DNA of 64,000 bases from Pseudomonadota bacterium (GTDB lineage: Bacteria; Pseudomonadota; Gammaproteobacteria; Acidiferrobacterales; Acidiferrobacteraceae), in assembly GCA_021795715.1 (NCBI GenBank), contig JAJYPD010000004.1, positions 1 to 64,000 of the forward strand. The letters run 5' to 3'. Positions 7,563 to 24,594 of the stretch are shown in pieces (the stretch's first letter is position 1; each line of letters opens with the position of its first letter). A model generated the notes under the pieces. It was not told the origin of the DNA. It did no database searches and saw nothing but the letters and a program-made list of their open reading frames with translations. A program made the position numbers and the translations under genes.

Positions 7563-9404
<1,842 letters not shown>

Positions 9405-9412
9405 GGTTCGCC

Positions 9413-9489
<77 letters not shown>

Positions 9490-9491
9490 TA

Positions 9492-9555
9492 TAAGTCAAT
9501 GACTTACGGGGATTCCTGAAAGTCGGCAAAAAAGCCCGTAAGCATATTGTAAGCA
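9492..9555. repeat. Repeat cluster next to tRNA 3' end (putative attachment/recombinase-binding region)
   Basis: Directly after the tRNA CCA there is a palindrome TAAGTCA-A-TGACTTA (9492-9506), an inverted pair CTTACGGG (9503-9510) / CCCGTAAG (9535-9542), and two direct copies of GTAAGCA (9538-9544 and 9549-9555) set 11 bases apart, about one helical turn. Such clusters are usual in att sites of tRNA-specific tyrosine recombinases. The attachment function is inferred. Confidence 0.45.
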
Positions 9556-9599
9556 CTTGGGGCGATTTCGGGGGTCTGGCACGCCTTCGGCCCCGCTCT

Positions 9600-10070
9600 C
9601 TAATGCTCGCAAGCGTCCCCGACAGGCCCATCCTCCCACCGTGGTTCAGGTTGGGCACCGATTACAACCAGTTGCCCAGCCGCCCCGGTCGCTTTAGGGA
9701 AGTGCCCTGCCCGGTCCAAAATGGCAATGGACGCCGCCACCTTGGCGCTGGCTGACGCGGTGTCATCAGTCAATACCTTCTCCAAGGCGGTGATAGCCTG
9801 TTCCGCCGCGCAGGATAGCCGCTCTTGGACTACTTCGTGCCGGGCTTCAGTCTCGACCTGACGTTGCGCCTTGAGTTCCTGCACCCGTTCCTTAATGTTC
9901 TCTTTTGTTAGGAGTTCGCAGGCCGTTACCCGCGCCGACCGCGCCGCGTATCCCGCTTCCCTCGCCGCCTTGGCCCCATCGTTCAATCGGGCGTAGGCAA
10001 GACAAAATTGCTCTTGCTTGGGCGTCAGTGTTGCTCGTCTCGGTTTCTCGACGGTTTCAAAATCGGTCAT
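9600..10070 (-). CDS. Terminase small subunit-like protein
   Basis: A protein of 156 residues. Residues 15-65 follow the phage terminase small-subunit pattern: LTPKQEQFCLAYARL, then AAREAGYAARSARVTACELL, then a short helix KENIKERVQEL, matching the N-terminal helix-turn-helix of the Terminase_2/XtmA families that recognises the packaging site. The rest is a long helix and a low-complexity tail. The ATG has a strong AGGAGG five bases upstream. No large terminase, portal or capsid gene is nearby, so if functional it would act with a helper phage packaging machine, as TerS of phage satellites does. Confidence 0.65.
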   Translation of the reverse strand: MTDFETVEKPRRATLTPKQEQFCLAYARLNDGAKAAREAGYAARSARVTACELLTKENIKERVQELKAQRQVETEARHEVVQERLSCAAEQAITALEKVLTDDTASASAKVAASIAILDRAGHFPKATGAAGQLVVIGAQPEPRWEDGPVGDACEH

Positions 10071-10150
10071 GGCGTCCTCCTAATGTTCATGCCATTGGCC
10101 TCCAGTACCCGCAACCGCGCCCCTCATGGGGATACCGGACCTTCGCGTGT

Positions 10151-10609
10151 TCACAAGAGACCAGGGCCCCACGTTCCCTCGGATCGGGCCGCCAGAGGGC
10201 GCAGGTGGCGCACGATACAGGCGGGCGCGGGGATTGGTAGGCCCCGCACGCGATTGGCGCACCATGGGCAGGCGGTGACGTGAGACGGGGCTCCCTGGAA
10301 GATATGGACCGGCCCGCATCCCTCGCAAAAGGTGGTCGAGGTGTAGGAGGAGGGTACGTCCCCGCGCGACCGGATGGTCGCCACGCGCTCGGCGTACTCG
10401 ATGGCCTCCCGTTCGGCGCCGGCTGGTTCCGTGATCACGGATGCGGGTGATTGCAGAGCGGTCAAGATTTCCGCCCTCTGCGCTTTCAAGGTCGGCCTCC
10501 ACCTAGCTATTTCTGCCTTGGGGCCGCGCACGCGCAGGGTGCCTTGCTCGGTCGGGACCAACGTAATGCCGTCTCGGATAGCGTCTTGGATCAGGGTTTG
10601 AGGGATCAT
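10151..10609 (-). CDS. Small protein with TubC-N-like domain and zinc-knuckle C-terminus
   Basis: A protein of 152 residues. The first 50 residues (LIQDAIRDGITLVPTEQGTL then a helix ending AQRAEILTAL) resemble the TubC-N docking-like domain found next to mobile-element replication proteins. The C-terminal part has two Cys pairs (CEGC and CPWC) about 19 residues apart, a likely zinc site. The ATG overlaps the stop of the upstream AAA ATPase gene by ATGA, so the two are translationally coupled. Role unknown; context suggests replication of the island. Confidence 0.6.
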   Translation of the reverse strand: MIPQTLIQDAIRDGITLVPTEQGTLRVRGPKAEIARWRPTLKAQRAEILTALQSPASVITEPAGAEREAIEYAERVATIRSRGDVPSSYTSTTFCEGCGPVHIFQGAPSHVTACPWCANRVRGLPIPAPACIVRHLRPLAARSEGTWGPGLL

Positions 10610-11790
10610 AGCTCGATGTCCTCGGCGTCGTCTTGGGCGCTAAGGTGCTCATCTCCCAGAGTTGAGCACCTTAGGGATTCCGTGAGCACCTTAGATGCTT
10701 CAGTACCGGGCAGACGCCAGTACCACGCCCCGGCCTTACCTATGCCGCCCTCGCGGTACCACTCGATGCCTAGCGCCTTTTGTGCCCGTTTGACGGTCGC
10801 CCACGAGTGGCAATGCGCGTCCGCCGCCGCCTTGATCTCGCGTTGCGGCTGTGGGCCTTCGGTCAGGAAGTCGCGCAGCCAGTCTCGCGCTTCGGACAAC
10901 GCGCCACCCTTCGCGGGTTGCGCTTCCGCTTGCGCCAGGATTTCGCGGGCGCTTCCCTCTACAGATTCGCCCCATAACACGGAGGACGCGAAGATACCGG
11001 GGTACGCTGCTAACTCGTCCTGCCGCAGCAGCTCGTAGGCAAAGCCGCCATCATCCGGCCCGACGTTAGACTTGGCCCGCATGAGAAGCCGCCGAGGGGC
11101 ACTGTCGTCTCGTGGTGTTTCCTTCGCGCAGACCATGACTACGCGGGCCAGTGCCGCGAAGGCCAGGCTTCCGGTTATACGGTCGATAGGCTCGCGGTCT
11201 TGGGTGCCTTTCGAGAAGTACGTAATTTCCAGTAAGGCACAGCGCAAGCGCCCGGCCAGATCGACTAGAGGTTGCAGTCCGCGCCGGACATCCGCGTCTT
11301 TGTGGGAATCCGCCGCGATAGCCGACACGATGGGGTCCACGATCAGAAGGCGTACGTTGCCGGTCGCCTTTAGTGCCGTCTCGAGGGCGACCATATCGTT
11401 TGCGGGGTCAAAGCTTCGGGGCTTCCCGTTTTCCACCATGCCCGACACAAAATGTACGCGGGTCATGTTCGCGCCCATCGCCCGCAGGCGGGGTACGAGG
11501 GTGTCCGTGGGATCATCTTCGCCGGACCAGATCACAACGTCGCCAACGGGGGCCTTGGTCCCATCCGGCCAGCGTCCGCCGGTCGTGAGAGCTGCCGCCA
11601 GCGCGAGCGCAATTGTGGTCTTGCCCGTTCCTGTCTGGCCGCCGAGAATGTGCATTTTGCCTGCCGCGAGCCAGCCAGGCCAAAGCCAATTGATAGGCTC
11701 GGGCGCCAGGGTATCGCCGCGAATGAGGGCGACAACGGACTGCTTGGGTGCCCACTCGGGCGGAAGGCTCAGTTCGATGGTGCCCTTCAT
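10606..11790 (-). CDS. RepA-like AAA ATPase (AAA_25 family)
   Basis: A protein of 394 residues from the ATG at 11790, which has AAGGGGG as ribosome-binding site; the frame is open upstream to 11949. Walker A is GGQTGTGKTT, with a hydrophobic LLIVDPIVSA Walker B, as in RecA/DnaB-fold RepA ATPases of plasmids, ICEs and prophages. The C-terminus is a winged-helix-like segment (REIKAAADAHCHSWATVKRA, ending WYWRLPG). It probably serves as replication helicase or loader of the element. It overlaps the preceding gene by ATGA and the next by ATGA. Confidence 0.75.
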   Translation of the reverse strand: MKGTIELSLPPEWAPKQSVVALIRGDTLAPEPINWLWPGWLAAGKMHILGGQTGTGKTTIALALAAALTTGGRWPDGTKAPVGDVVIWSGEDDPTDTLVPRLRAMGANMTRVHFVSGMVENGKPRSFDPANDMVALETALKATGNVRLLIVDPIVSAIAADSHKDADVRRGLQPLVDLAGRLRCALLEITYFSKGTQDREPIDRITGSLAFAALARVVMVCAKETPRDDSAPRRLLMRAKSNVGPDDGGFAYELLRQDELAAYPGIFASSVLWGESVEGSAREILAQAEAQPAKGGALSEARDWLRDFLTEGPQPQREIKAAADAHCHSWATVKRAQKALGIEWYREGGIGKAGAWYWRLPGTEASKVLTESLRCSTLGDEHLSAQDDAEDIEL

Positions 11791-12152
11791 CGCGCCCCCT
11801 TCAGGACGTAGCGCGCCCCGCTCGATGTGTCGATGACCGACGCCGCACCGTCTCGCAACAGGCCGAGGATCAGACGTTCCACATGGGCCCCGTCTATTTG
11901 TCCAGCCCGGACCAGGAGGACGGGGCCCCGGCCGCATACCACGCTCCAATCGATCAGCGCCGGGTCACGGGTGGGATCATCAGCGAGCGCCAAACGTGCC
12001 GGGCACTTCATTACGGCGTCCCATGCCTTGGGGCCGGCAAAAACAAAGAGCGTCACGGCTGAATTGTCGGCGCTTGTGCCCAAGGCTTGCCGGCGGGCAG
12101 TCGGGTCCGCAATGCGCGCCGCCACGGCTTTTGAGTACGGAGCGGCGCTCAT
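11787..12152 (-). CDS. Hypothetical island protein
   Basis: A protein of 121 residues from the ATG at 12152, which has GGAGA nine bases upstream; the frame is open further upstream. The C-terminal part (LIDWSVVCGRGPVLLVRAGQ then HVERLILGLLRDGAASVIDT) suggests an alpha/beta fold, but I recognise no family. The stop overlaps the start of the AAA ATPase gene (ATGA). Position directly before the ATPase suggests a role in replication control. Confidence 0.5.
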   Translation of the reverse strand: MSAAPYSKAVAARIADPTARRQALGTSADNSAVTLFVFAGPKAWDAVMKCPARLALADDPTRDPALIDWSVVCGRGPVLLVRAGQIDGAHVERLILGLLRDGAASVIDTSSGARYVLKGAR

Positions 12153-12231
12153 GGCCGCCGTCTCCAGCGAGACCACAGCTCCAAAATTACGAAGGGGCCA
12201 ACAAATGGGGCTATCGCGCAAAGGGCGGGGA

Positions 12232-12450
12232 TCATGCGGCCTCCCGATCCGAAGTCGAGGTGCGGGTGTTGGCCTCAAGCCAGGCCAGAACATCTGACCC
12301 GCGATAAAGAGGCTGGCGGCCGACCTTCACGAAAGCAGGGCCGGTGCCCGCCCATCGACCGCGCTCGAACCAGGCTAAGGATTTTCGCAGGATCGGCGCA
12401 AGATCGGTTTGAGTATAAAGGGTGCCCGGTTCAATGGCGGAAGGAATCAT
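12232..12450 (-). CDS. AlpA-like helix-turn-helix regulator/excisionase
   Basis: A protein of 72 residues from the ATG at 12450; a TTG at 12483 is an alternative. The pattern TQTDLAPILRKSLAWFERGR, then GPAFVKVGRQPLYRGSDVLAWLEA, is the MerR/excisionase-like winged helix of the AlpA/HTH_17 group, here with a GPAFVKVG turn and W-L at the end. These proteins regulate integrase genes or serve as directionality factors in prophages, satellites and ICEs. A palindrome lies just upstream of its start. Confidence 0.65.
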   Translation of the reverse strand: MIPSAIEPGTLYTQTDLAPILRKSLAWFERGRWAGTGPAFVKVGRQPLYRGSDVLAWLEANTRTSTSDREAA

Positions 12451-12459
12451 TGTTATATG

Positions 12460-12479
12460 CTCACTTGTTTGAAAGTGAG
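12460..12479. promoter_or_regulatory. Perfect inverted repeat upstream of alpA-like gene (putative operator)
   Basis: CTCACTT (12460-12466), six-base spacer, AAGTGAG (12473-12479): perfect 7-bp arms, 9 bases before the proposed ATG of the AlpA-like gene. Position and size suit an operator for a small dimeric repressor, possibly autoregulation; in RNA it could also form a hairpin over the translation start. Function is inferred. Confidence 0.5.
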
Positions 12480-12549
12480 GCAATCTTGAGGGGTGGCGCG
12501 AACGGTGGGGGAGGGGAAAGGTAGCGGAAGTTGGGAGGGGTTTTCCGGC

Positions 12550-12858
12550 TTACCTTAAAAGTTTGCGAATCTCATTGGCCTCGCGGTCTACGGTCTTGCG
12601 GATTTTATTTGCTGCTGTGGTGTCTATGGGGCGTAATACCTTTTCGATCTCGACGGCCACGGCCCGCACTATAGCGGGCGACGGCATGGGAAGTGCACTT
12701 TTGCATCGCTCTCGGACTACGGCTGCCGTGTACAGATCAGCAGGGGGTTCGCGGAAGCGATCCATTACGCATCGCTCGAATGAGACATTATTTGAGTATC
12801 GCTCATGCTCTGCCGCTTCTTCTTCATAGACACGGATCGTATCGCGGATACCATTCAA
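12550..12858 (-). CDS. Hypothetical island protein, mostly helical
   Basis: A protein of 102 residues rich in charged residues (RVYEEEAAEHERYSNN at the start, KIRKTVDREANEIRKLLR at the end), predicted largely alpha-helical. I recognise no family. Lower GC than the surrounding chromosome. It begins 6 bases after the stop of the preceding small gene, so both are probably cotranscribed, upstream of the AlpA-like gene. Confidence 0.45.
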   Translation of the reverse strand: MNGIRDTIRVYEEEAAEHERYSNNVSFERCVMDRFREPPADLYTAAVVRERCKSALPMPSPAIVRAVAVEIEKVLRPIDTTAANKIRKTVDREANEIRKLLR

Positions 12859-12864
12859 GACGAC

Positions 12865-13218
12865 TTACGTGCATTGGCTCAACATCGCCAGCGCCAGGCG
12901 GGCTCTGAAGCCATAATTACTATGATCGCCGTCCATAACGGCAAGCGCCGCCTTTAGGTTGGCGGCCTGTTTCCGAAGTTTTCGTGCCTCTGTTTTCCCG
13001 TCGCGGCGCAGGAAGTCGAGGGCCGCAAGGGTGAATATCCGCTCGATGTAATTTTGCCAGGGATTTACCAGGAAGGTTGACGACCCCTCGCGGTAAGGGG
13101 TTTCAATCACAAGCCCGTTTATATCCAGATACGCGGTCGCCTGTTTACCGATAGCGTCCGAGTGCGGGCCGCGATTACTGATTGCCTTAAACGCCAGTTT
13201 GATGTTTTTAGGCGTCAC
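12865..13218 (-). CDS. Hypothetical island protein
   Basis: A protein of 117 residues with a GTG start at 13218 preceded by AAGGG at a good distance. A perfect TATAAT (minus strand, 13242-13237) lies just upstream, though without a good -35, which suggests a promoter for the island's early genes. Sequence features: TAYLDINGLVIETPYREGSS and a basic helical C-terminus (RKLRKQAANLKAALAVM). No family recognised. Confidence 0.45.
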   Translation of the reverse strand: MTPKNIKLAFKAISNRGPHSDAIGKQATAYLDINGLVIETPYREGSSTFLVNPWQNYIERIFTLAALDFLRRDGKTEARKLRKQAANLKAALAVMDGDHSNYGFRARLALAMLSQCT

Positions 13219-13373
13219 CCGTTGCCCTTCATGGATATTATAATAGCCGTCTCTCTCACCCCTGCCGCCTTTAAAACAAAGTCCTCAATGCGCTCCCCAT
13301 AGGGCTGCGTAGGCGCGTTGTGGCATGCTTTGGGGCGTTACTTTCGCGCCTGACATAAGGGCTCCCTTGTGGT

Positions 13374-13682
13374 TCACCCCGCCGCCTCTCGGATGACTTC
13401 CGGGTGTGTCGCGGCAATTTTAAGTAGCGTGTTGGCGGCCCCCGAAGGGTTACGACGACCTTGCTCCCAATCTTGCAGGGTGCGGACAGAGACCCCCAAA
13501 ACTTCTGCGAACTGCGTCTGCGACAGGCCCGCGCGCAGCCGTGCCTCGACGATACGGGAAAGGCTGACCTTATGGACAGCACCGATCTCGCCCGCCTTCA
13601 TTTGACGGACGGAAGCCAGCAGTTCCGCGCCAATGTCGCGCTTGGCGTCTCGCGCCTGTAGTTCCTTTTCGGTCTTAGCCAT
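13374..13682 (-). CDS. HigA-like antitoxin, XRE helix-turn-helix
   Basis: A protein of 102 residues from the ATG at 13682. The C-terminal half is an XRE/Cro helix-turn-helix: ARLRAGLSQTQFAEVLGVSV followed by RTLQDWEQGRRNPSGAA, the HigA/RelB2 pattern in which the antitoxin also represses its own operon. Its start overlaps the end of the toxin-like gene by 8 bases, giving the toxin-first order usual for higBA. The pair may stabilise the island. Confidence 0.8.
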   Translation of the reverse strand: MAKTEKELQARDAKRDIGAELLASVRQMKAGEIGAVHKVSLSRIVEARLRAGLSQTQFAEVLGVSVRTLQDWEQGRRNPSGAANTLLKIAATHPEVIREAAG

Positions 13683-14172
13683 GGTCGATCTCCTTACGAA
13701 TGTCTCGCAGTATGTGGGCCGGTATGTTGTCCTGGGCGCTTTTGGCATACATCAGTAGCAGCCAGAGCGGCCCGCTCGGCGCGGGGAAGTAATAGATCAC
13801 GCGCACCCCGCCACGTTTCCCCATGCCCCGCCGTGACCAACGCACCTTGCGACACCCGCCGCTTCCCGGTATCACGTCACCCGCATCCGGGTATGATGCA
13901 AGCCGCGCACAGAAAGCGCCGCGTTCGTCCTCATCCCAGTAGTCCGGCCACAGTCGGGAAAAGAGGGGAGACCGAGCGTGGGCGCACCTGTTCGAGCGAG
14001 TCGACAGCCACCTCCGCAAACACCGGGGGCGCCTTGGCCGCGCCGGTTGCGGCGGGCGTTTCCGCACGCCCCACCAGGCGTGTGGCATGGCGTTACGCCA
14101 GGCGTTCGAGGCACGGAACATGCAAGGGCCAACGATCAGCTCCAGATGCCTTACATGCCGGCGGATGTTCAT
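13675..14172 (-). CDS. HigB/RelE-like toxin, uncertain start
   Basis: The conserved part is the last 98 residues (from about 13971): SPLFSRLWPDYWDEDERGAF, PGSGGCRKVRWSRRG, GKRGGVRVIYYF, then LLLMYAKSAQDNI, matching RelE/HigB-type mRNA interferases of about 100-115 residues. The frame remains open to 14172 with only weak start candidates (14172, 14121, 14088) and no convincing ribosome-binding site. The 67 extra residues are Arg/Pro-rich and look non-coding. The true start may be a non-ATG codon near 13.98 kb, or the 5' end may be damaged. Paired with the HigA-like gene. Confidence 0.65.
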   Translation of the reverse strand: MNIRRHVRHLELIVGPCMFRASNAWRNAMPHAWWGVRKRPPQPARPRRPRCLRRWLSTRSNRCAHARSPLFSRLWPDYWDEDERGAFCARLASYPDAGDVIPGSGGCRKVRWSRRGMGKRGGVRVIYYFPAPSGPLWLLLMYAKSAQDNIPAHILRDIRKEIDHG

Positions 14173-14541
14173 ACCTTGGCATCAAGCCCGTCCATGGTCC
14201 ACGGCCATCCCCAGGCAATGCCCGGTGGGGTAACGGGGGCGGTCCTGAGTATTATAAGGGGCCTTTTCGGTCGTAGAGAACCGTGAACACGTCGCTTATT
14301 TTCAATATAAATTCTTATCACAAAGTCGGTTTTGACGAGCGCCCGTTCCCCCATGCGCAGTGTGCTGGGGCGAGAACGGCGAATCGCCGAGCCGCAGTGG
14401 CACTTTGATTGTGGGCGTGGTCTGTGATCGAAGGATCGTGGCGGGGCGCTGTATCGCTCCGGTTTTGGCGTGTAACCCCAAACCGCGTTTCGGCGTCTCA
14501 GGAGTGAAGGCCGCACAAAGCGGTCAAGAGGAGAATTTTTA
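14173..14541. other. Intergenic junction between island and exported-protein cluster
   Basis: No convincing gene. It contains an AT-rich patch (about 14290-14335) and a short hairpin GGCGAATCGCC near 14380. It probably holds the right edge of the island and the promoter of the following gene. I looked for a second copy of the tRNA 3' end here and found none. Confidence 0.5.
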
Positions 14542-15258
14542 ATGACAAACGACAAGATGTGGCTCGCTCCCCTGTTGGCGCTGATGGTCATTCCGGCATA
14601 TGCCCACGCGAGGCCCGCTATCCAGACGGTCCTGGCTGAACGGGGCTTGCCGGCGCCTGTGGCAGCGCGTCTCGCGACGCAGGCGCAGGCCCATTATTCG
14701 GCTGCCCGTATGAAGGCCTTGGTGAGCGCCCTCAAAACGGTGCCCGCACTGCCGACCTCCCACACCGCGACATCCGATATGGGGGCGGAGGCGGCCATGA
14801 CCAAGGTTTTGACCCAGGCGTTTGCGCTGACCCTGCCGGCATCACGGGTCGCAGCCGCCGCCAAGGCCGTGATTGCGGCGGTGCAAACGGGTGCGCGGCC
14901 GGCGCCCACCGCGCAGCTTGTAATCACCGGTCTCAAAGACGGCCTGCGCGGCCCCGCGCTCACTGCCGTTGCGCGCGGTTACTGCGCGGACATTCATCGC
15001 GGTGCGACGCCCCCGGTGGCCTATCGTACGGCCATGCGGCATATCACAGGGCTTCACGAAAGCGCCACTGCCGGTATGAAAGGCACCTTCATGTCGGGCG
15101 ACACCGAACAAAGTCTCGTGACACATAGCGGCGTCATGGCGGGGAGCCACGCGGTCATGGGTGGCGCCACCGGGGCTTTCGGCGCTATGCGTGGGGCAGG
15201 TGCCACCATGGGCGGCAGCGTCACCATGAGTGGTGGCGGCACCATGAGTCGGCCCTGA
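14542..15258 (+). CDS. Exported helical protein with Gly/Met-rich tail (paralog A)
   Basis: A protein of 238 residues with a signal peptide (hydrophobic LAPLLALMVIPAYAHA, probable cleavage after A-H-A). The mature part is Ala-rich and helical, with repeated G-L/V-P turns (ERGLPAPVAARL; LKDGLRGPALTAV). The last 50 residues are Gly/Met-rich and disordered-looking (GVMAGSHAVMGGATGAFGAM, ending TMSGGGTMSRP). Build and motifs match the exported protein at 17718-18569, so the two look like paralogs. No function is known to me; Met-rich tails can bind Cu(I), but that is speculative. The ATG has GAGGAG upstream and a strong terminator follows. Confidence 0.75.
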   Translation: MTNDKMWLAPLLALMVIPAYAHARPAIQTVLAERGLPAPVAARLATQAQAHYSAARMKALVSALKTVPALPTSHTATSDMGAEAAMTKVLTQAFALTLPASRVAAAAKAVIAAVQTGARPAPTAQLVITGLKDGLRGPALTAVARGYCADIHRGATPPVAYRTAMRHITGLHESATAGMKGTFMSGDTEQSLVTHSGVMAGSHAVMGGATGAFGAMRGAGATMGGSVTMSGGGTMSRP

Positions 15259-15266
15259 TTCCGGTC

Positions 15267-15296
15267 GGGGAGGGGCCCCTCCCCGGTCTTTTTCTG
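15267..15296 (+). terminator. Rho-independent terminator after exported protein A
   Basis: A perfect palindrome GGGGAGGGG-CCCCTCCCC (15267-15284) followed within two bases by TCTTTTTCT. It begins 8 bases after the stop codon, so it should separate the gene at 14542 from the downstream barrel gene. Confidence 0.85.
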
Positions 15297-15410
15297 TTGG
15301 CTGTCGCAGACCCTGAAGTCGCAGCAGGGGTGCTGTCCCGCGGCCGGCCGGGTGAGCCGATTGGTTGCCGGGGCGACACGAAAGCGTGATTGGGGCATGT
15401 AGGGGGAATT

Positions 15411-16175
15411 TTGACCAACAACACAATATTCAAGGTGTGCTGCGCCGCCATCATGGTGACGTGGATCGCCTTGCCGGCCGGTGCGGCGGTATTCGGTGGT
15501 ATCGACGCCGGGTATGTGCATGACAACAACTTCATCGGCGCGCCGGTCGGATATCCGCCGGTGAGCGATACTGCGCAGATCTATTCCGCGTATGTAGGCG
15601 GTTATAAAGCCACCGATGGCGGCCGCGGCGCGTGGCTTGGGAGCGTCAACGTTCGCGTTACGCGTCTGCAGCGGTATACGAGTCTCGACAACGATCTTTT
15701 CGGTGGCACCATTGGGTATTATCACAAGCTTGGTGTGGGCTCCATGCTGGCGACGATCGGCGGCCAGGACATCCGGTATGGCGAGGCCGCAGAGGATTTT
15801 CTGCTCTACTTCACGCGACTGCGATTCAAGCAGGGCACGGCGCGCGTATGGGTAACGGAAAACGCCGAGTTCGATGATTCCCATGGCGGTCAAGCACCAA
15901 ACGCCTATCGAGGATACTCCGTATGGGGCTCGCTCAATGGCCGGGCATGGTCTTCCGGGACGCTGTCTTTGTCTTTGGCTCACTCAGACGATCGCTACAA
16001 CATCTCCGCCACGGCGACCCGCATCACGAACGTAGCCACCTGCGCCCTGAAGCAACAGCTGGGAGACGGCGTCTATGCGCGCGTTTCCTATAGTCTGGAG
16101 CATGTAACGATTCCGGGAGGCCAGGCATTTCATGCGAATCTGTTCGCCGCCGGAGTGGGTATGATGTTTGGTTGA
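15411..16175 (+). CDS. Outer-membrane beta-barrel-like exported protein (TTG start)
   Basis: A protein of 254 residues. AGGGGGA (15401-15407) sits just before a TTG codon at 15411, the best start; the encoded N-terminus is a clear signal peptide (VCCAAIMVTWIALPAGA). The mature part alternates polar and aromatic/hydrophobic residues with many Gly, Tyr and Trp (AYVGGYKATDGGRGAW; LFGGTIGYYHKLGVGS; SVWGSLNGRAWSSGTLSLSL) and ends AAGVGMMFG, consistent with an outer-membrane barrel of about ten strands. No named family recognised. It lies between exported protein A and the CBM48/sigma operon. Confidence 0.65.
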   Translation: MTNNTIFKVCCAAIMVTWIALPAGAAVFGGIDAGYVHDNNFIGAPVGYPPVSDTAQIYSAYVGGYKATDGGRGAWLGSVNVRVTRLQRYTSLDNDLFGGTIGYYHKLGVGSMLATIGGQDIRYGEAAEDFLLYFTRLRFKQGTARVWVTENAEFDDSHGGQAPNAYRGYSVWGSLNGRAWSSGTLSLSLAHSDDRYNISATATRITNVATCALKQQLGDGVYARVSYSLEHVTIPGGQAFHANLFAAGVGMMFG

Positions 16176-16198
16176 GAGCGCGCTGCCCCTGATATACT
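16172..16198 (+). promoter_or_regulatory. Possible promoter of CBM48/sigma operon
   Basis: TTGAGA (16172-16177) and TATACT (16193-16198) with a 15-base spacer, just before the ATG at 16205. The spacer is short for sigma-70 and the transcript would be nearly leaderless, so this is tentative. No obvious ECF-type AAC/CGT promoter was recognised. Confidence 0.25.
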
Positions 16199-16204
16199 CG
16201 CGGC

Positions 16205-16549
16205 ATGCAGCGGCGGAAAATGGGTTGGATGGCGTTGCTCGGCATGGCGCTGTGCGGGGTGGGGAGCGCCCACGCACAACCCGTCCGCGTGTGGTTGCGG
16301 GCGCCCGCAGCCCGGCGGGTGATGGTGTGCGGCAGTTTTTTCGACTGGCGGTGCCGGACACTCAAGCGCGGCCGCCATGGCGTCTATGCCGGCATTTTGT
16401 CGCTCGCGCCTGGTCTTTATACCTACGGTTTTCGGGTGGACGGTCGTTGGCGACTGGCCCATCACGCGCTTCGGGTCGCCGATGGTTTTGGTGGCCACAG
16501 CGACCTGCTGGTGGTCCCTGTAACCGGTCAGGCCCCGCCGCCGTCTTAA
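16205..16549 (+). CDS. Exported single-domain glycogen-binding-like (CBM48/E-set) protein
   Basis: A protein of 114 residues: signal peptide (MALLGMALCGVGSAHA, cleavage after A-H-A) followed by one immunoglobulin-like E-set domain. Diagnostic of CBM48/AMPK-beta type modules are VMVCGSFFDWR, a GVYAGILSLAPGLYTYGFRV strand pair, DGRW, and ADGFGGHSDLLVV. CBM48 modules bind alpha-glucans in glycogen-active enzymes, but there is no enzyme here. The same domain is the periplasmic part of the membrane protein two genes downstream. First gene of a probable operon with the ECF sigma factor. Confidence 0.75.
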   Translation: MQRRKMGWMALLGMALCGVGSAHAQPVRVWLRAPAARRVMVCGSFFDWRCRTLKRGRHGVYAGILSLAPGLYTYGFRVDGRWRLAHHALRVADGFGGHSDLLVVPVTGQAPPPS

Positions 16550-16604
16550 GGGATGGCGGGTGCGGGATTGCCTGCAGGTGATGTGCGGGGAGAGGAGGCG
16601 GGTG

Positions 16605-17192
16605 GTGCCCACGAACGAGGCGTCTTGCGGAGATGACGATGATTGCATCGCTCGATGTCTGGCAGGTGAATGGCGGGCGTTTCGTCCCCTGGTGGAGCGC
16701 CATGCCCCCATGGTTCATCGCCTCGTCGCCCGCCTCGCACCCGATATGGACGTCGAGGATCTGGCCCACCAGACCTTCGTGGCCGCTTTCGAGCACTTGG
16801 CTCAATACGAGCGCCGGGCACGATTCTCCACCTGGTTGTGCCAGATCGCAGTCAACAAGGTTCGCGATCACGCGCGCGCAATCCGGCGGTGCCCGCCGCA
16901 GGTGGCGGTCGATGATTGCGAAATCATGGATTGCGATGCCGATGGTGTCCACATCGGACCCGAGCGCCATGCCCTCGCTCGCGAGCGAAGCCAGGTGCTC
17001 GCGCGGGCGCTGGCCCAGTTGCCGGTTATCGATCGCGAGCTTGTCGTGCTGCACTATATGCTGGACCAGGATTATCGGACGGTGGCCGGGGTGTTGGGTA
17101 TTTCAGCTGGAGCCGCCAAGGTGCGGGGATTTCGGGCCCGCCGTGAACTGCGCAGACTGCTGATGCGGGAGGCGTTGTCGCATGAATCATAG
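16605..17192 (+). CDS. ECF-type RNA polymerase sigma factor
   Basis: A protein of 195 residues from a GTG at 16605, preceded by the strong AGAGGAGG (16591-16598); an adjacent GTG at 16602 is equally possible. Region 2 is clear (RLAPDMDVEDLAHQTFVAAF, then RFSTWLCQIAVNKVRDHAR), as is region 4 (LPVIDRELVVLHYMLDQDYR, then VAGVLGISAGAAKVRGFRAR). There is no region 1 or 3, as expected for ECF factors. Its stop overlaps the start of the membrane protein gene by 11 bases, suggesting the partner is the anti-sigma factor. Target promoters are unknown. Confidence 0.88.
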   Translation: MPTNEASCGDDDDCIARCLAGEWRAFRPLVERHAPMVHRLVARLAPDMDVEDLAHQTFVAAFEHLAQYERRARFSTWLCQIAVNKVRDHARAIRRCPPQVAVDDCEIMDCDADGVHIGPERHALARERSQVLARALAQLPVIDRELVVLHYMLDQDYRTVAGVLGISAGAAKVRGFRARRELRRLLMREALSHES

Positions 17193-17721
17193 AAACTGGA
17201 ATGATGATGGCCATATAGGCGAACACATGCGCTCGGCGGCGACACCTGTGGTCAGACCCGATTTCGCCGACAACGTCATGGAAGATGTCCGTCGCCTGGC
17301 GACGGCACCCCGCCCGCGCCCGGCCGTGCATCGCCGTCGCTGGGCGCCGCTGGCGCTGGCTGCGACCCTGACCGCCGTGACGATTGGCGTCATCCTGCGA
17401 GCCGGTGGCGGTGAAGCCGTGCCCGTCCGGCGGGCCGCGCCCGCGATGGTGCGGCGCGTGAATTTCGCAGTGCGCTTGCCGCATGCCCACAGCGTGGGTG
17501 TCATTGGCAGTTTTGATGGTTGGCAGCATGCCGTGCCCTTGAAGCGCCACGCACATGGCCTATGGGTCGCGCGTCTGCGGTTGCCCGTCGGCCAGTATGC
17601 CTATCTGTTCGTCGTCAACGGCCATCGGACCATGCCGAACCCTCAGAGCCGGGAGCAACAGCCCGACGGGTTTGGCGGTGAAAACTCGGTAATCATCGTG
17701 GATGGACGGGCGACCGCATGA
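17182..17721 (+). CDS. Putative membrane anti-sigma protein with periplasmic CBM48/E-set domain
   Basis: A protein of 179 residues. Residues 1-50 are a short polar segment (VRPDFADNVMEDVRRLA is anti-sigma-like), 55-72 one transmembrane helix (WAPLALAATLTAVTIGVIL), and about 92-175 an E-set domain of CBM48 type (VGVIGSFDGW; GLWVARLRLPVGQYAYLFVV; DGFGGENSVIIVDG). Coupling to the ECF gene (11-base overlap) and the topology point to a membrane anti-sigma or sensor. There is no Cys, so it is not a zinc anti-sigma, and the cytosolic part is short; the anti-sigma role is therefore inferred. Overlaps the next gene by ATGA. Confidence 0.72.
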   Translation: MNHRNWNDDGHIGEHMRSAATPVVRPDFADNVMEDVRRLATAPRPRPAVHRRRWAPLALAATLTAVTIGVILRAGGGEAVPVRRAAPAMVRRVNFAVRLPHAHSVGVIGSFDGWQHAVPLKRHAHGLWVARLRLPVGQYAYLFVVNGHRTMPNPQSREQQPDGFGGENSVIIVDGRATA

Positions 17722-18569
17722 ACAGGACGCACGCCCTGATTGGTTTCGCGCTGATACTGGCGAGCGGCCTTGCCTGCGCACAAAACTCTTCATCGGCCGG
17801 TATTTTCCTGCGCGCCGGGTTGCCTCCGGCGAGCGCCGCGCGTCTGACGCGCTGGGGCGCGCGAGCCCACCTGGCGAAAGCCACCTACCAGACCTGGGCG
17901 CGCATCTTCCGGGCCGTGAAGCGGGAGGGTGTGCCCCCGGCGCTGCTTGCCAGTCGCGCCTTTGAGGGCTTACTGAAGGGTGTGCCGCAAGCGCGCCTCA
18001 CCGCGGCCCTGCGCGTCACGGCGCACAATCTCTTGTGGGGGGCGCGTCTCGTGCGACAAAATGCGCCGCGCGCGTCGCTGGCAACCCCGCAAGCCCAGGC
18101 CGCCCTGAATGCCTTGATCATCGCCCGCCGGACCTTGACGGCATCGGGAATCAAGACGATCGCCGGCCACGGGCCATTACCCTTGTCGCGCCTCACGGCG
18201 CTCGTGACCATGGCCGCGGATGCGCGTGATGCCGGTGTTGGGGCAGATCAGGTCATGAATGTGCTGCGCCACGCGCGCCACTTGCGTACGGCAGTTCTGG
18301 CTCACGAAAACACGCGTTTCGTCGAGGCCGCGAGCCGTCGGGCGCGGGCGGCCGTGTGGGAGGATCTGACCCACCTCGCGGGCATCCATCCGTCTGTGCC
18401 CGGAATTTCCCGCCCTCCGGTTGGGATTCATCAGGATTTTGGTGCGGTCATGGGGCCGGGCGCGATCGGCGCACCCGGCCCCATGGGGGCAGGTGGCGCC
18501 ATGGGATCTGCGCCCATGGGAGCCGGTCCGGGTATCGGGGGCGGTGGCATGGGGGGTCCGGGCATGTAG
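17718..18569 (+). CDS. Exported helical protein with Gly/Met/Pro tail (paralog B)
   Basis: A protein of 283 residues starting within the stop of the anti-sigma-like gene (ATGA). Signal peptide with probable cleavage after A-C-A (ASGLACAQ). The mature part is helical with G-V/L-P turns (AGLPPASAARL; KREGVPPALLASRAFEGLLK, then GVPQARL), similar to protein A at 14542. The last 45 residues are a Gly/Met/Pro repeat (GAPGPMGAGGAMGSAPMG, ending GGGGMGGPGM). As last gene of the sigma/anti-sigma operon it may be the main exported product under its control. Function unknown. Confidence 0.75.
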   Translation: MNRTHALIGFALILASGLACAQNSSSAGIFLRAGLPPASAARLTRWGARAHLAKATYQTWARIFRAVKREGVPPALLASRAFEGLLKGVPQARLTAALRVTAHNLLWGARLVRQNAPRASLATPQAQAALNALIIARRTLTASGIKTIAGHGPLPLSRLTALVTMAADARDAGVGADQVMNVLRHARHLRTAVLAHENTRFVEAASRRARAAVWEDLTHLAGIHPSVPGISRPPVGIHQDFGAVMGPGAIGAPGPMGAGGAMGSAPMGAGPGIGGGGMGGPGM

Positions 18570-18719
18570 TGCGGGACCTCCCCCGGGCTTGTGATCCCCT
18601 GGCCCACTGGACGGCTGCCCATGCAACTTCGCGCGTTTTCTGTGGTCTTTACTATTCGCTCCAGACCTTATCTGGTCGGACACCATCCTATGCGGCAAGA
18701 TGAAGTGAAGGAGGCGGTT

Positions 18720-19295
18720 ATGCAGAAAAAGAAACGTGCCCTGGCCGTTGTCGGCGGCAGCGCGGTGATTGGTGCGGCGATCCTTGGCGCCATCGGCGTC
18801 GCGTCGGCGGCACCGGCACCGCGACCAAAGCCCGCGATGATGTATGTGCGCATCAACGGAGAACGCACCCCCGTGCAGGGCTTTGAGCGGACCGTACGGC
18901 TGCCTGGCGGAGGCGTATTTCGGGAGGAATCCTTCACCTGGGGTGAGGGAGCCCAACCGCAGGCGGGAAGCATGCGGATCCAGCAGATGACGCCGCAGCA
19001 AGCGCAGGCGGTGATCACCCGCAGTCTGGCGATGTTCCACGCCTTGCAGGTTTCGATGGATCGGCAGATGGCCACCATGCAGAGGCTGATGCCGGTGTCG
19101 TTTGCGCCCATGCCGGCCGCACCCATCGCGACCTGGCAACCTGGCATCGCTTTGCCGCTCGCGGCCTTTCCGCAGCCCTTGCCGGCGGCGGTTGCGCCCG
19201 CGCCGCGGGCCCCTTCTGCGTATGCGGGGCGGCCGCGGTACGAAGTGATCCGCTGGGCGCATCCGGCGCGCCCGCCCGCGAAGCGCCCCGCCTGA
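18720..19295 (+). CDS. Exported Met/Pro/Ala-rich protein of unknown function
   Basis: A protein of 191 residues from the ATG at 18720, which has GAAGGAGG (18707-18714). Signal peptide MQKKKRALAVVGGSAVIGAA onward, cleavage near A-S-A. The mature part has a short beta-like segment (MMYVRINGERTPVQGFERTV, then FREESFTWGEG), a Met/Gln-rich helix (MRIQQMTPQQAQAVITRSLA; MDRQMATMQRLMPV) and a Pro/Ala-rich basic tail. No family recognised. It lies 150 bases after protein B in the same direction and has the same exported, Met-rich character. Confidence 0.6.
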   Translation: MQKKKRALAVVGGSAVIGAAILGAIGVASAAPAPRPKPAMMYVRINGERTPVQGFERTVRLPGGGVFREESFTWGEGAQPQAGSMRIQQMTPQQAQAVITRSLAMFHALQVSMDRQMATMQRLMPVSFAPMPAAPIATWQPGIALPLAAFPQPLPAAVAPAPRAPSAYAGRPRYEVIRWAHPARPPAKRPA

Positions 19296-21535: not shown

Positions 21536-22366
21536 CTACGTGTCCATCGCGCCCAGCAGAATACTCTCGATCTCTTCGGTAATGTCTTCCTGGCGCATCG
21601 CGTTGCTGCGCCGTGCCCACGCCTCGGATTGTTCATCCAGATGCCTTACCGCCCCATCGAGATGTCGGACCCGGCGCTGATTTTCTGCCATGAGGGAGAC
21701 ATAGGCGATCTCATGGAGCGCGGCAAATACATAGTGTTCCACAAGTCCGGCAAAAAATACGGCGGGCGGCAGATTCAGAAGCGGCGGGTACGTCCGGGGG
21801 CGCAAGGCGCGGGCGGGCGGCGTGAAGGGAGGCAACAGCGGTTTGCGCAGCGGTTGCACGGTATCTGGCGCATGATAGAGCGCGACGAGCGGAAAGGGGC
21901 CCTCTGCGGTCTGCAACCTGGCGATGGACTGGGTCAGCCCAAGCAGAACCGCCTCGACGTCTTCTGCCGCACTTGCCCCGCCGACGATCGCGGCGAGCTT
22001 TGGCTCCCGTTCCATGCGGCTGCCAAGCTTATGCCCGACCACCACCAGATGGCGGACCGCGCCGATACCCGATTCTTTCAGTGCGTCTACCAGCGATTCA
22101 TTGAAATCACCGCAAAATCCCCGTTCCGAGCCAAAGAGCACGGCCATCTGCGGTGTTTGCGGCGTCGTGGCGCCGGCCAGGCCGGGATAATGACCGAGAA
22201 AATCCTCCGCCACGGCCTGCATCTGCTGGACCGCCTCCCGCTGCACTTCCAGAAAGCGGGCCAGCTTGCGAGTCTCCATATACGCCAAAGTCTTCATGGA
22301 ATTCATGATGCCGCGAATATCCCCCAGCGCGAGGAGGTGCTGCTCGACTTCATGTCGCCTGCTCAT
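21536..22366 (-). CDS. atpG: N-type ATPase gamma subunit
   Basis: A protein of 276 residues. The N-terminal helix has the gamma-type pattern [20 protein letters not shown], and the C-terminal helix ends with [19 protein letters not shown], matching the conserved R-Q-x-x-I-T-x-E-I. The middle has a Rossmann-like strand ending [14 protein letters not shown]. Last gene of the atpDCQBEFAG operon, the position of gamma in N-ATPases. Its start overlaps the end of atpA by 17 bases. It forms the central stalk between the catalytic head and the c ring. Confidence 0.88.
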
Positions 22367-23861
22367 GGACGCCTCCGAGACCTGTTTGGCGGAGCCATTG
22401 CGTCACGGAGGCGACCCATGCCTCGCGCGGACTGTCCAGGGACAGATCGGTGTGTTCCATGCGCCCCATGAGAGCGCGCAGGCAAACGGCGATATTTTCC
22501 ACCGGCGTATCCGCAAACAACCCTTCGTTGAAGGCCACAAGCCAGGCCATCTGATATTCGATGGATTGGGGTGAGAGGCGATCCTGCTTTAGGATCTCGC
22601 GCAGGGTACGCCCCCGCTGTATGGCGGCCTCCATGGAGGCCTCCAGGCGCGCCCCGAAACGGGTGAACACCTCAAGCTCCAGAAACTGGAGATAATCGAG
22701 TTTCATTCGTCCGGCTTCTTCCTTGATGCGCGGGTGCTGCGCCTGGCCGCCAATACGGGAAACCGACCGGGCGACATCAATAGCCGGGCGGAACCCGCCA
22801 GCAAAAAGATTTCGATCAAGATAGATCTGCCCATCGGTGATCGATATGAGGTTGGTGGGGATATAGGCCGCGATTTCGCCCTGCAGGGTTTCCACGATCG
22901 GCAGCGCGGTCATGCTTCCGCCACCGGCAGCCGCGTTCAGACAGGTGGCCCGCTCCAGCAGTTCGGCATGCACCGAAAAGATGTCGCCTGGATACGCCTC
23001 CCGGCCGGGCGGGCGGCGCAGCAGCAGGGACAGTTCCCGGTAGGTTTTGGCGTGGGTCGCGAGATCATCGTAGACGACCAAAGTGTCGCGTCCCTGCCGC
23101 ATCCAGAACTCCGCTATCGCACAGCCTGCAAACGGGGCCAGATACTGCAGGCCGGGCAGTGCGCTCGCTTCGGCGACCACGACGGTGGTGAATTCGAGTG
23201 CCTGATACTGCCGCAGGGTTTGGATGGTATTGACGACCGCGGAGCGTTTTTGACCGATGAGCACATACACGCAGCAGACGCCTTTGCCGCGCTGGTTGAT
23301 CACCGCATCCAGGGCCACCGAACTGCGGCCGAGTCCCTCATCGCCGATCACCAGCTGGCGCTGCCCCTTGCCGATGGGGATCAAGGTGTCGATGATCGCG
23401 ATTCCCGAGTACAAGGGCTTGTGCACGAAGTCGCGCGCGGTGATGGGCGGAGATTTCGCCTTCAGGGGGTACCATGCCGCAGGTTCGCAAGCTGCCACGC
23501 CATCGAGAGGGGCACCCAAGGGGTCGATAACCCGTCCCGGCAAATCATTGCTTACCGCAATACGCAAAGTGCCCCGGGGCGATCGCCCGGCAGTGCCTAC
23601 GGCAAGGGCTGCGGTCTGGTGCAATAAAACCGTGCCTATGCGGCCTTCGCTGAGATCGAAGACCATGCCACGGCTGCCATCAGCGAAATCGAGGACCCCG
23701 TCCATGGCGGTGGAAGGCAGGCCGCTCACCCAGGCGATCCCGTCCCCTACCGATATCACGCGTCCCTCTTCGGTCAGGCGCAGAGGGGGATCATAACGCT
23801 CAAGCCACGCCGCCTGACGGCGCAAAGGGCCGGTCGGCGGGAGTATAGGGTCATCCTCCAT
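22350..23861 (-). CDS. atpA: N-type ATPase alpha subunit with altered P-loop
   Basis: A protein of 503 residues from the ATG at 23861. Alpha-family blocks: [57 protein letters not shown] (the alpha signature) and the DxQIYLDxNLF segment. The P-loop is unusual: GDEGLGRSS at residues 173-181 instead of GDRQTGKT, so the Walker A lysine is an arginine (R179, codon CGC). Alpha sites are non-catalytic but bind nucleotide for regulation, so this may weaken nucleotide binding there. Overlaps atpF by 11 bases. Confidence 0.93.
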
Positions 23862-24594
23862 CGGACGATTCCGCGAAGGCCTTGAGTTCATCGCGCAGAT
23901 TGGCCCGTAGCGCCCAATCCCCCATGGTGATGCGTACGCCTGCCAGCAGATCCTTGTCCTCCTCATAGGTTACGGCAGGCGCGCCTTCCAGAAAGGTTGC
24001 CAAAGACTGTCCCAGCACGCGGCGGCGGCTCTCATCGAGGGGGAAGGCGCTGACGATGTGAATGCCCTTGCCATTTCTGGCGCCCGCCCTCAGGCGATCC
24101 TTGGCCTCCGGGGACAGTCCGGGGAGCTCCTGAAGGAGAAAGTCGAGAAGGCGGCGCTCCACATCCGGTCCCGCGACCGCAGACAGGAGGCGCGTGGCGA
24201 ACTGCGTCGCATGAGCCAAAGCCGTCCGTTCCGCGCGCAACTGCGCAGCCTCCATGTCACGCGCCGCAAGCGCCTGCGCCCGGTCGCGTTCCTGCTGCAG
24301 ATCGGCCTGCAATGCCGCCAGTCGACGGGCGCCTTCCGCCGCCATCTCCTTGTCCAGCACGTCACGGGCCGTCTGTCGCTCCTTGTCCCACTGGCCGAGG
24401 CGGTTTTCATATTGCGTCTTCAAAGCTTCTGCGGCGGCCTGCATCGCCTGGGCGTCTGCGAGGGTTTTCTCTACCGCCGTTCGCCGGCGCGCGATCACTT
24501 CCAGTATGGGGCGATAGAAAAAACGCTTCAGGATCCAGATCAGGATGAAGAAGTTTATGATCTCGAGGAAGAACGTAGTCCAGGTCACTTCCAA
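23851..24594 (-). CDS. atpF: N-type ATPase b subunit with delta-like C-terminus
   Basis: A protein of 247 residues, longer than a normal b subunit (about 156). One N-terminal membrane helix ([20 protein letters not shown]), then the family RPIxxxIxRRR, a long Ala/Glu/Arg coiled coil to about residue 150, and a C-terminal part resembling delta (ending [20 protein letters not shown]). N-ATPase operons lack a separate delta gene and use such a fused b subunit, which fits here. Confidence 0.9.

Follow-up and report, generated by a model that had tools for sequence, protein, structure and literature searches.

Extracytoplasmic function (ECF) sigma systems rank among the main types of signal transduction in bacteria, and for the majority of their groups no signal is known. 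Here we describe a gene set in a 64,000-nucleotide stretch of DNA from a member of the Acidiferrobacteraceae (Pseudomonadota; contig JAJYPD010000004.1, hereafter the window), in which an ECF sigma factor is encoded next to a membrane protein with a CBM48 domain. The closest described systems each share part of this architecture. In SigI/RsgI of Clostridium thermocellum, a membrane anti-sigma factor has an outer sensor that can be a carbohydrate-binding module; RsgI contains a self-cleaving periplasmic domain and sensors of the CBM3, CBM42, or PA14 type, the setting is a Gram-positive bacterium, and SigI differs from typical ECF factors (PMC12203970, PMC4711584). Signaling through TonB-dependent transducers, FecR, and ECF factors (PMC11637429, PMC9249621) has an outer-membrane barrel, an inner-membrane anti-sigma factor, and an ECF factor encoded together. 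The Dma/Das (ECF21) pathway of Bacteroides likewise comprises an anti-sigma domain, a transmembrane helix, and an outer-membrane barrel; Dma, reported only in Bacteroidota, joins anti-sigma domain and barrel in one protein via a disordered tether, and the dma2 operon is among the genes most controlled by the pathway (PMC13088901). Finally, structures have been solved for the SigW/RsiW (5wuq) and sigmaE/RseA (1or7) pairs, with which the system is compared below.

Gene content, gene order, domain make-up, conservation across phyla, and a conserved promoter motif were computed directly. A preliminary description of the window had pointed to a run of same-strand genes coupled by short gaps or overlaps, and seven consecutive plus-strand open reading frames (ORFs; genes A to G) are indeed confirmed at 14542 to 19295 in the ORF listing of the window. 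Genes C and D are separated by 10 bp, D and E overlap by 11 bp, and E and F overlap by 4 bp. The features of the locus are as follows.

14471 to 14500, plus strand: ECF-type promoter TGTAACC-N16-CGTCTCA upstream of gene A, kept in relatives.
14542 to 15258, plus strand: gene A, exported protein with a Gly/Met-rich tail, a family-specific accessory (ORF, homologues).
15263 to 15288, plus strand: terminator-like hairpin with an 11-pair stem, then TTTTT, between A and B (consensus match only).
15390 (or 15411) to 16175, plus strand: gene B, outer-membrane beta-barrel-like protein (homologues, model, Foldseek).
16205 to 16549, plus strand: gene C, small exported CBM48 (AMPK1_CBM) protein (PF16561).
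16519 to 16548, plus strand: second match to the ECF-type promoter (TGTAACC-N16-CGTCTTA), overlapping the 3' end of C and preceding D.
16560 (perhaps 16581) to 17192, plus strand: gene D, ECF sigma factor (Sigma70_r2, Sigma70_r4_2).
17182 to 17721, plus strand: gene E, candidate anti-sigma factor with one transmembrane helix and a periplasmic CBM48 domain (PF16561, family profile).
17718 to 18569, plus strand: gene F, exported all-helical protein with a Gly/Met-rich tail, part of the cross-phylum core (profile-profile comparison, model).
18720 (the more likely start) to 19295, plus strand: gene G, signal-peptide-like N terminus, outside the system (ORF).

We consider it likely that genes A to F, spanning 14542 to 18569, make up an autoregulated ECF sigma/anti-sigma envelope-signaling system. 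The gene set is real and conserved and apparently undescribed as an ECF/anti-sigma system.

Within the Acidiferrobacter family, E was found in seven further genomes, all from one other genus and including Acidiferrobacter sp. clean437. Genes B, C, D, E, and F are found in unchanged order and orientation in each of the seven loci, and A occupies the same position in five; the contigs of the other two end before A. Proteins A to F are about 31 to 62% identical between the window and the other family genomes (38 to 45% for B, 52 to 62% for C, and 49 to 56% over the full alignment for D). Between A and B, an additional short gene for an exported protein occurs in the relatives, as seen in L032 and L036. 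Four family genomes that lack E (G001, G002, G004, and G015) also lack F. The preliminary description had named failure to co-occur in other genomes as a refutation of its proposal, and the set does co-occur, with its order kept. It had also counted flanking exported proteins as members: A, syntenic in the relatives, belongs, whereas G was tried as a member and rejected because none of the seven syntenic genomes has it, while G002, a genome with no E or F, does. Protein F, which it had treated as one more exported protein, does have a signal-peptide-like N terminus (as do A, C, and G, by inspection and hydropathy) but was underrated, since it proves to be a core component.

A contig scan with the single E sequence returned no matches; with an E alignment as query, 35 loci were obtained. 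The core of D, E, and F recurs in Acidobacteriota, Bacteroidota, Balneolota, Myxococcota, Lentisphaerota, Spirochaetota, and another gammaproteobacterial family. In nine distant loci (L043, L048, L050, L053, L054, L056, L058, L065, and L066) an ECF gene lies beside a gene for a membrane CBM48 protein, and each has an F homologue, recognized by profile or by eye; in L055, E and F sit at a contig end. The representative of the other gammaproteobacterial family (G224) has C-like, ECF, E, and F genes. A search with F only, which avoids selecting on CBM48, covered 543 genomes and gave 15 matches in 296 Bacteroidota-centered genomes and 3 in 247 Acidobacteriota-centered ones. With the seed loci left out, an ECF gene and a CBM48 membrane protein were present in 14 of 15 fresh loci, and the remaining locus (L139) lies close to the end of its contig, beginning about 700 bp from it. 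All 12 fresh Bacteroidota-centered loci encode an ECF factor, E, a protein of about 420 amino acids (aa) ending in CBM48, and F. Among 397 Pseudomonadota-range genomes, a membrane-type E (E value ≤1e-12) beside an ECF gene was found in the window only, so the system is rare in that range. That an ordinary ECF gene pair merely has unrelated exported genes nearby by chance is very improbable and strongly disfavored by the conservation data: ECF genes are often coupled to anti-sigma genes and G is a truly unrelated neighbor, but the order of A to F is kept in the family and ECF, E, and F stay together across phyla, in the F-only search as well.

The barrel-like gene and the second CBM48 gene vary in arrangement. 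In Bacteroidota and Balneolota a fusion of a barrel-like part to CBM48 lies between E and F; the window has separate genes B and C. The first part of the fusion is barrel-like, with PF10082 (putative beta-barrel porin 2) above its cut-off in L066. In a fifth arrangement, in the Leptospiraceae (L058), genes for an ECF factor, E, a lipoprotein-like CBM48 protein, F, and a barrel-like protein stand in a row. Other contexts were seen around these families. A multihaem-cytochrome-like protein with many CXXCH motifs follows E in L053, L055, and L056. Locus L140 of G224 contains a tandem duplication of the C-like, ECF, and E genes (8390 to 14444), with match coordinates and scores equal in both copies. 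A similar CBM48 domain is found in large proteins (about 440 to 940 aa), with no ECF match in their neighborhood, in L044 to L047, L049, L051, L052, and L057, and again in L059 to L063, L068 to L070, and L072. Standalone CBM48 proteins of about 100 to 110 aa from other gammaproteobacteria (L083 to L095) were set aside, with no ECF or F match in the roughly 3 kb around each.

Protein E matches PF16561 AMPK1_CBM (9.7e-10) and also PF02922 CBM_48, in agreement with the domain calls first made for C, D, and E. Its one strongly hydrophobic segment, at about residues 54 to 72, follows the stretch RPRPAVHRRRW, which would therefore leave the N terminus inside and the CBM48 domain outside. The N-terminal part of the E family profile matches the RsiW chain of the solved SigW complex (5wuq_C, 2.2e-7), and the C-terminal part matches the AMPK beta CBM and pullulanase. 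A zf-HC2 domain is present in 4 of 14 family members and RseA_N, weakly, in one; neither E nor its relatives gave a call for an RsgI-type anti-sigma domain. The N-terminal segment of window E shares a P..F...VM-like stretch with other E proteins. A coupled membrane anti-sigma factor had been anticipated for this sigma factor, and the anti-sigma domain carried by distant relatives of E strengthens that candidacy. We infer that window E is an anti-sigma factor that inhibits D.

Protein D (210 aa) matches Sigma70_r2 (2.5e-15) and Sigma70_r4_2 (5.1e-12), scores above the TIGR02937 cut-off, and has only regions 2 and 4, and in sequence it resembles SigW and RpoE. In a tree of 28 system sigma factors and 38 others, mostly from the same genomes, one label change separates the two groups (shuffled mean, 21.5; 0 of 500 shuffles as low).

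AAC and CGTC elements are a known kind of ECF promoter motif. The sequence TGTAACC-N16-CGTCTYA lies ahead of A in the window and also in each of the five relatives whose upstream DNA is intact, with one mismatch in L036. Allowing one mismatch at most, the motif occurs at two sites in the 2.1-Mb genome of the window, each of them inside the cluster (ahead of A and of D, as listed above); each of the five relatives has the motif once before A, and it is absent from G001, G002, and G004. Read backwards as a control, the motif gave 0 or 1 match per genome. Extra matches in G007 and G008 were considered as signs of a wider regulon; they lie where an upstream coding sequence ends (L160 and L164) or in transposase-rich repeats (L169), and because these positions are unconvincing we claim no further target. 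The placement of the motif suggests autoregulation; on the most economical interpretation of these sequences, the regulon is narrow as well. Since ECF-type promoters precede A and D, the neighboring exported genes are likely targets of the sigma factor, as the preliminary description had supposed.

The remaining proteins look exported or barrel-like. Protein B has homologues in seven relatives. Its predicted structure is all-beta at low confidence (pLDDT, 49.6), and the top 50 Protein Data Bank (PDB) matches of the model in Foldseek are all outer-membrane proteins (best E value, 2.6e-7), which agrees with its earlier description as barrel-like and with a resemblance to porins. Neither B nor E matches a TonB-dependent receptor, plug/STN, or FecR domain in Pfam or NCBIfam. 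Protein C matches PF16561 AMPK1_CBM (4.8e-11) and also PF02922 CBM_48; the C proteins of the window and its relatives have a conserved cysteine pair around GSFxxW (CGSFxxWxC), possibly a disulfide. Protein F is modeled from 15 sequences as all-helical with a confident core (pLDDT, 79.4). It has no PDB fold match at an E value of ≤0.001, no solved sequence relative, and no Pfam family in the members tested. Profile-profile comparison nonetheless joins F to the distant F set (probability 97.6; E value, 2.7e-12), whose profile picks F alone among the seven window proteins. Protein A is helix-rich by eye and has no Pfam family above its cut-off. It was considered as a paralogue of F, and this was not established (hhalign probability 2.7 and 11.8).

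From this architecture a mechanism can be proposed. E would sit in the inner membrane, hold D through its cytoplasmic N-terminal segment, and display its CBM48 domain to the periplasm. The second CBM48 protein, C, may act at or near the outer-membrane barrel B, as its Bacteroidota and Balneolota counterpart is fused to a barrel-like protein, and we infer a role for the B-C pair on this basis. What releases D might be a changed alpha-glucan-like polymer, in the periplasm or at the surface, or an altered contact between the two CBM48 domains; the ligand and the release step are speculative, as are the functions of F and A. Freed D would transcribe the operon from the promoters before A and D, raising the amounts of the exported and outer-membrane products and resetting the system. 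The earlier idea of a CBM48-linked envelope-signaling system is thus partly supported, in its architecture and its regulation, and the gene set is probably a widespread means, so far unstudied, by which bacteria monitor the cell envelope or its polysaccharides. More tentatively, it may constitute a distinct cross-phylum ECF group in which paired CBM48 domains, one on the anti-sigma factor and one on or near a barrel, sense a shared glucan and F is an obligatory periplasmic or surface partner.

Several observations weigh against the proposed system. The N-terminal segment of window E, about 54 residues, has no zinc motif or domain recognizable in Pfam or NCBIfam, so its anti-sigma role is drawn from whole-family homology and gene coupling. 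The match before D is perfect in the window, and no match lies before D in the relatives. The hairpin separates A from B and is a possible attenuator, and A to F therefore need not be one transcript. In the sigma tree, a quick one, the branch splitting system sigma factors from the others is unsupported and many forks are unresolved; a single origin is for that reason a possibility that the tree allows. A barrel family is above its Pfam cut-off in only one of four fusion proteins tested (L066), and homology of B to the barrel-like part of the fusion has no sequence support (hhalign probability 0.2), so the correspondence of B and C to the fusion is one of order and domain pairing, not of descent. 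Lastly, E proteins of the Acidiferrobacter family lack the second tryptophan of CBM48 and have His-Val, Arg-Val, Arg-Thr, and the like instead.

This last point bears on what the CBM48 domains do. They may be protein-protein modules rather than sugar-binding ones, so that the system would sense the state of outer-membrane or periplasmic proteins, as sigmaE/RseA/RseB does, with the barrel or F being monitored. One of two aromatic positions is lost in E of the window lineage, the operon encodes a barrel-like protein in many lineages, and the AMPK beta CBM also makes contacts inside its kinase complex. On the other hand, virtually every CBM48 domain aligned, whether from E, C, or a fusion protein, has the GxFxxW tryptophan, and the second (DGxxW-like) is kept in C and most distant E proteins, as expected of a retained carbohydrate-binding face. 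These residues fit such a face having been kept at least in C, and we rate the protein-protein explanation as a serious one that falls somewhat short of an even chance.

A relay resembling FecA-FecR-FecI, in which the barrel would bind or transport a ligand and signal through its CBM48 domain to that of E, is slightly more doubtful. It would account for neighboring genes encoding two CBM48 domains, one at the C terminus of the barrel-like protein and the other on the periplasmic face of E, and for the row of genes in L058. However, domain calls in B and the fusion proteins included neither a TonB-dependent receptor nor a plug/STN domain, and the contact between CBM48 domains is hypothetical.

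Around the system, the window contains mobile-element-like genes on the minus strand at 9600 to 12500 (terminase-small-subunit-like, RepA-like AAA, and AlpA-like, by eye) and, just upstream of A on the minus strand, a possible HigB/RelE-type toxin and HTH antitoxin pair (13374 to 14172, by eye). A primary-sigma-like gene (8685 to 9362; open frame of 617 aa, TIGR02937 match) lies near the system. ATP synthase gamma-, alpha-, and b-like genes at 21536 to 24594, minus strand, resemble by eye a second, N-type ATPase operon.

Full-text searches of the open-licence literature found no system that links an ECF/anti-sigma pair with CBM48; the group may already have an ECF group number. Across about seven phyla the set brings an ECF factor together with a domain of the glycogen-binding type and a conserved helical protein, and it offers a defined promoter. 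CBM48 is familiar chiefly from AMPK and from enzymes of starch and glycogen, and the set points to an additional role for it in envelope sensing. If the system is as we propose, F, a family with no solved structure and, in the members tested, no Pfam family, acquires testable roles. Compared with RsiW and RseA, which have no CBM48 domain, E has one, and the partner genes differ, even though D resembles SigW and RpoE and the N-terminal part of the E family resembles RsiW. Unlike FecIRA-type signaling, the window system has CBM48 modules and no TonB receptor, plug, STN, or FecR domain was found in it, nor did the fusion proteins give a TonB-receptor- or FecR-type Pfam match. In contrast to SigI/RsgI, it combines an ECF factor and CBM48 with an envelope of the Gram-negative type and with barrel-like and helical partners. 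Whereas Dma carries its own barrel, E ends in CBM48, the barrel is encoded by a separate gene, and the system extends over several phyla.

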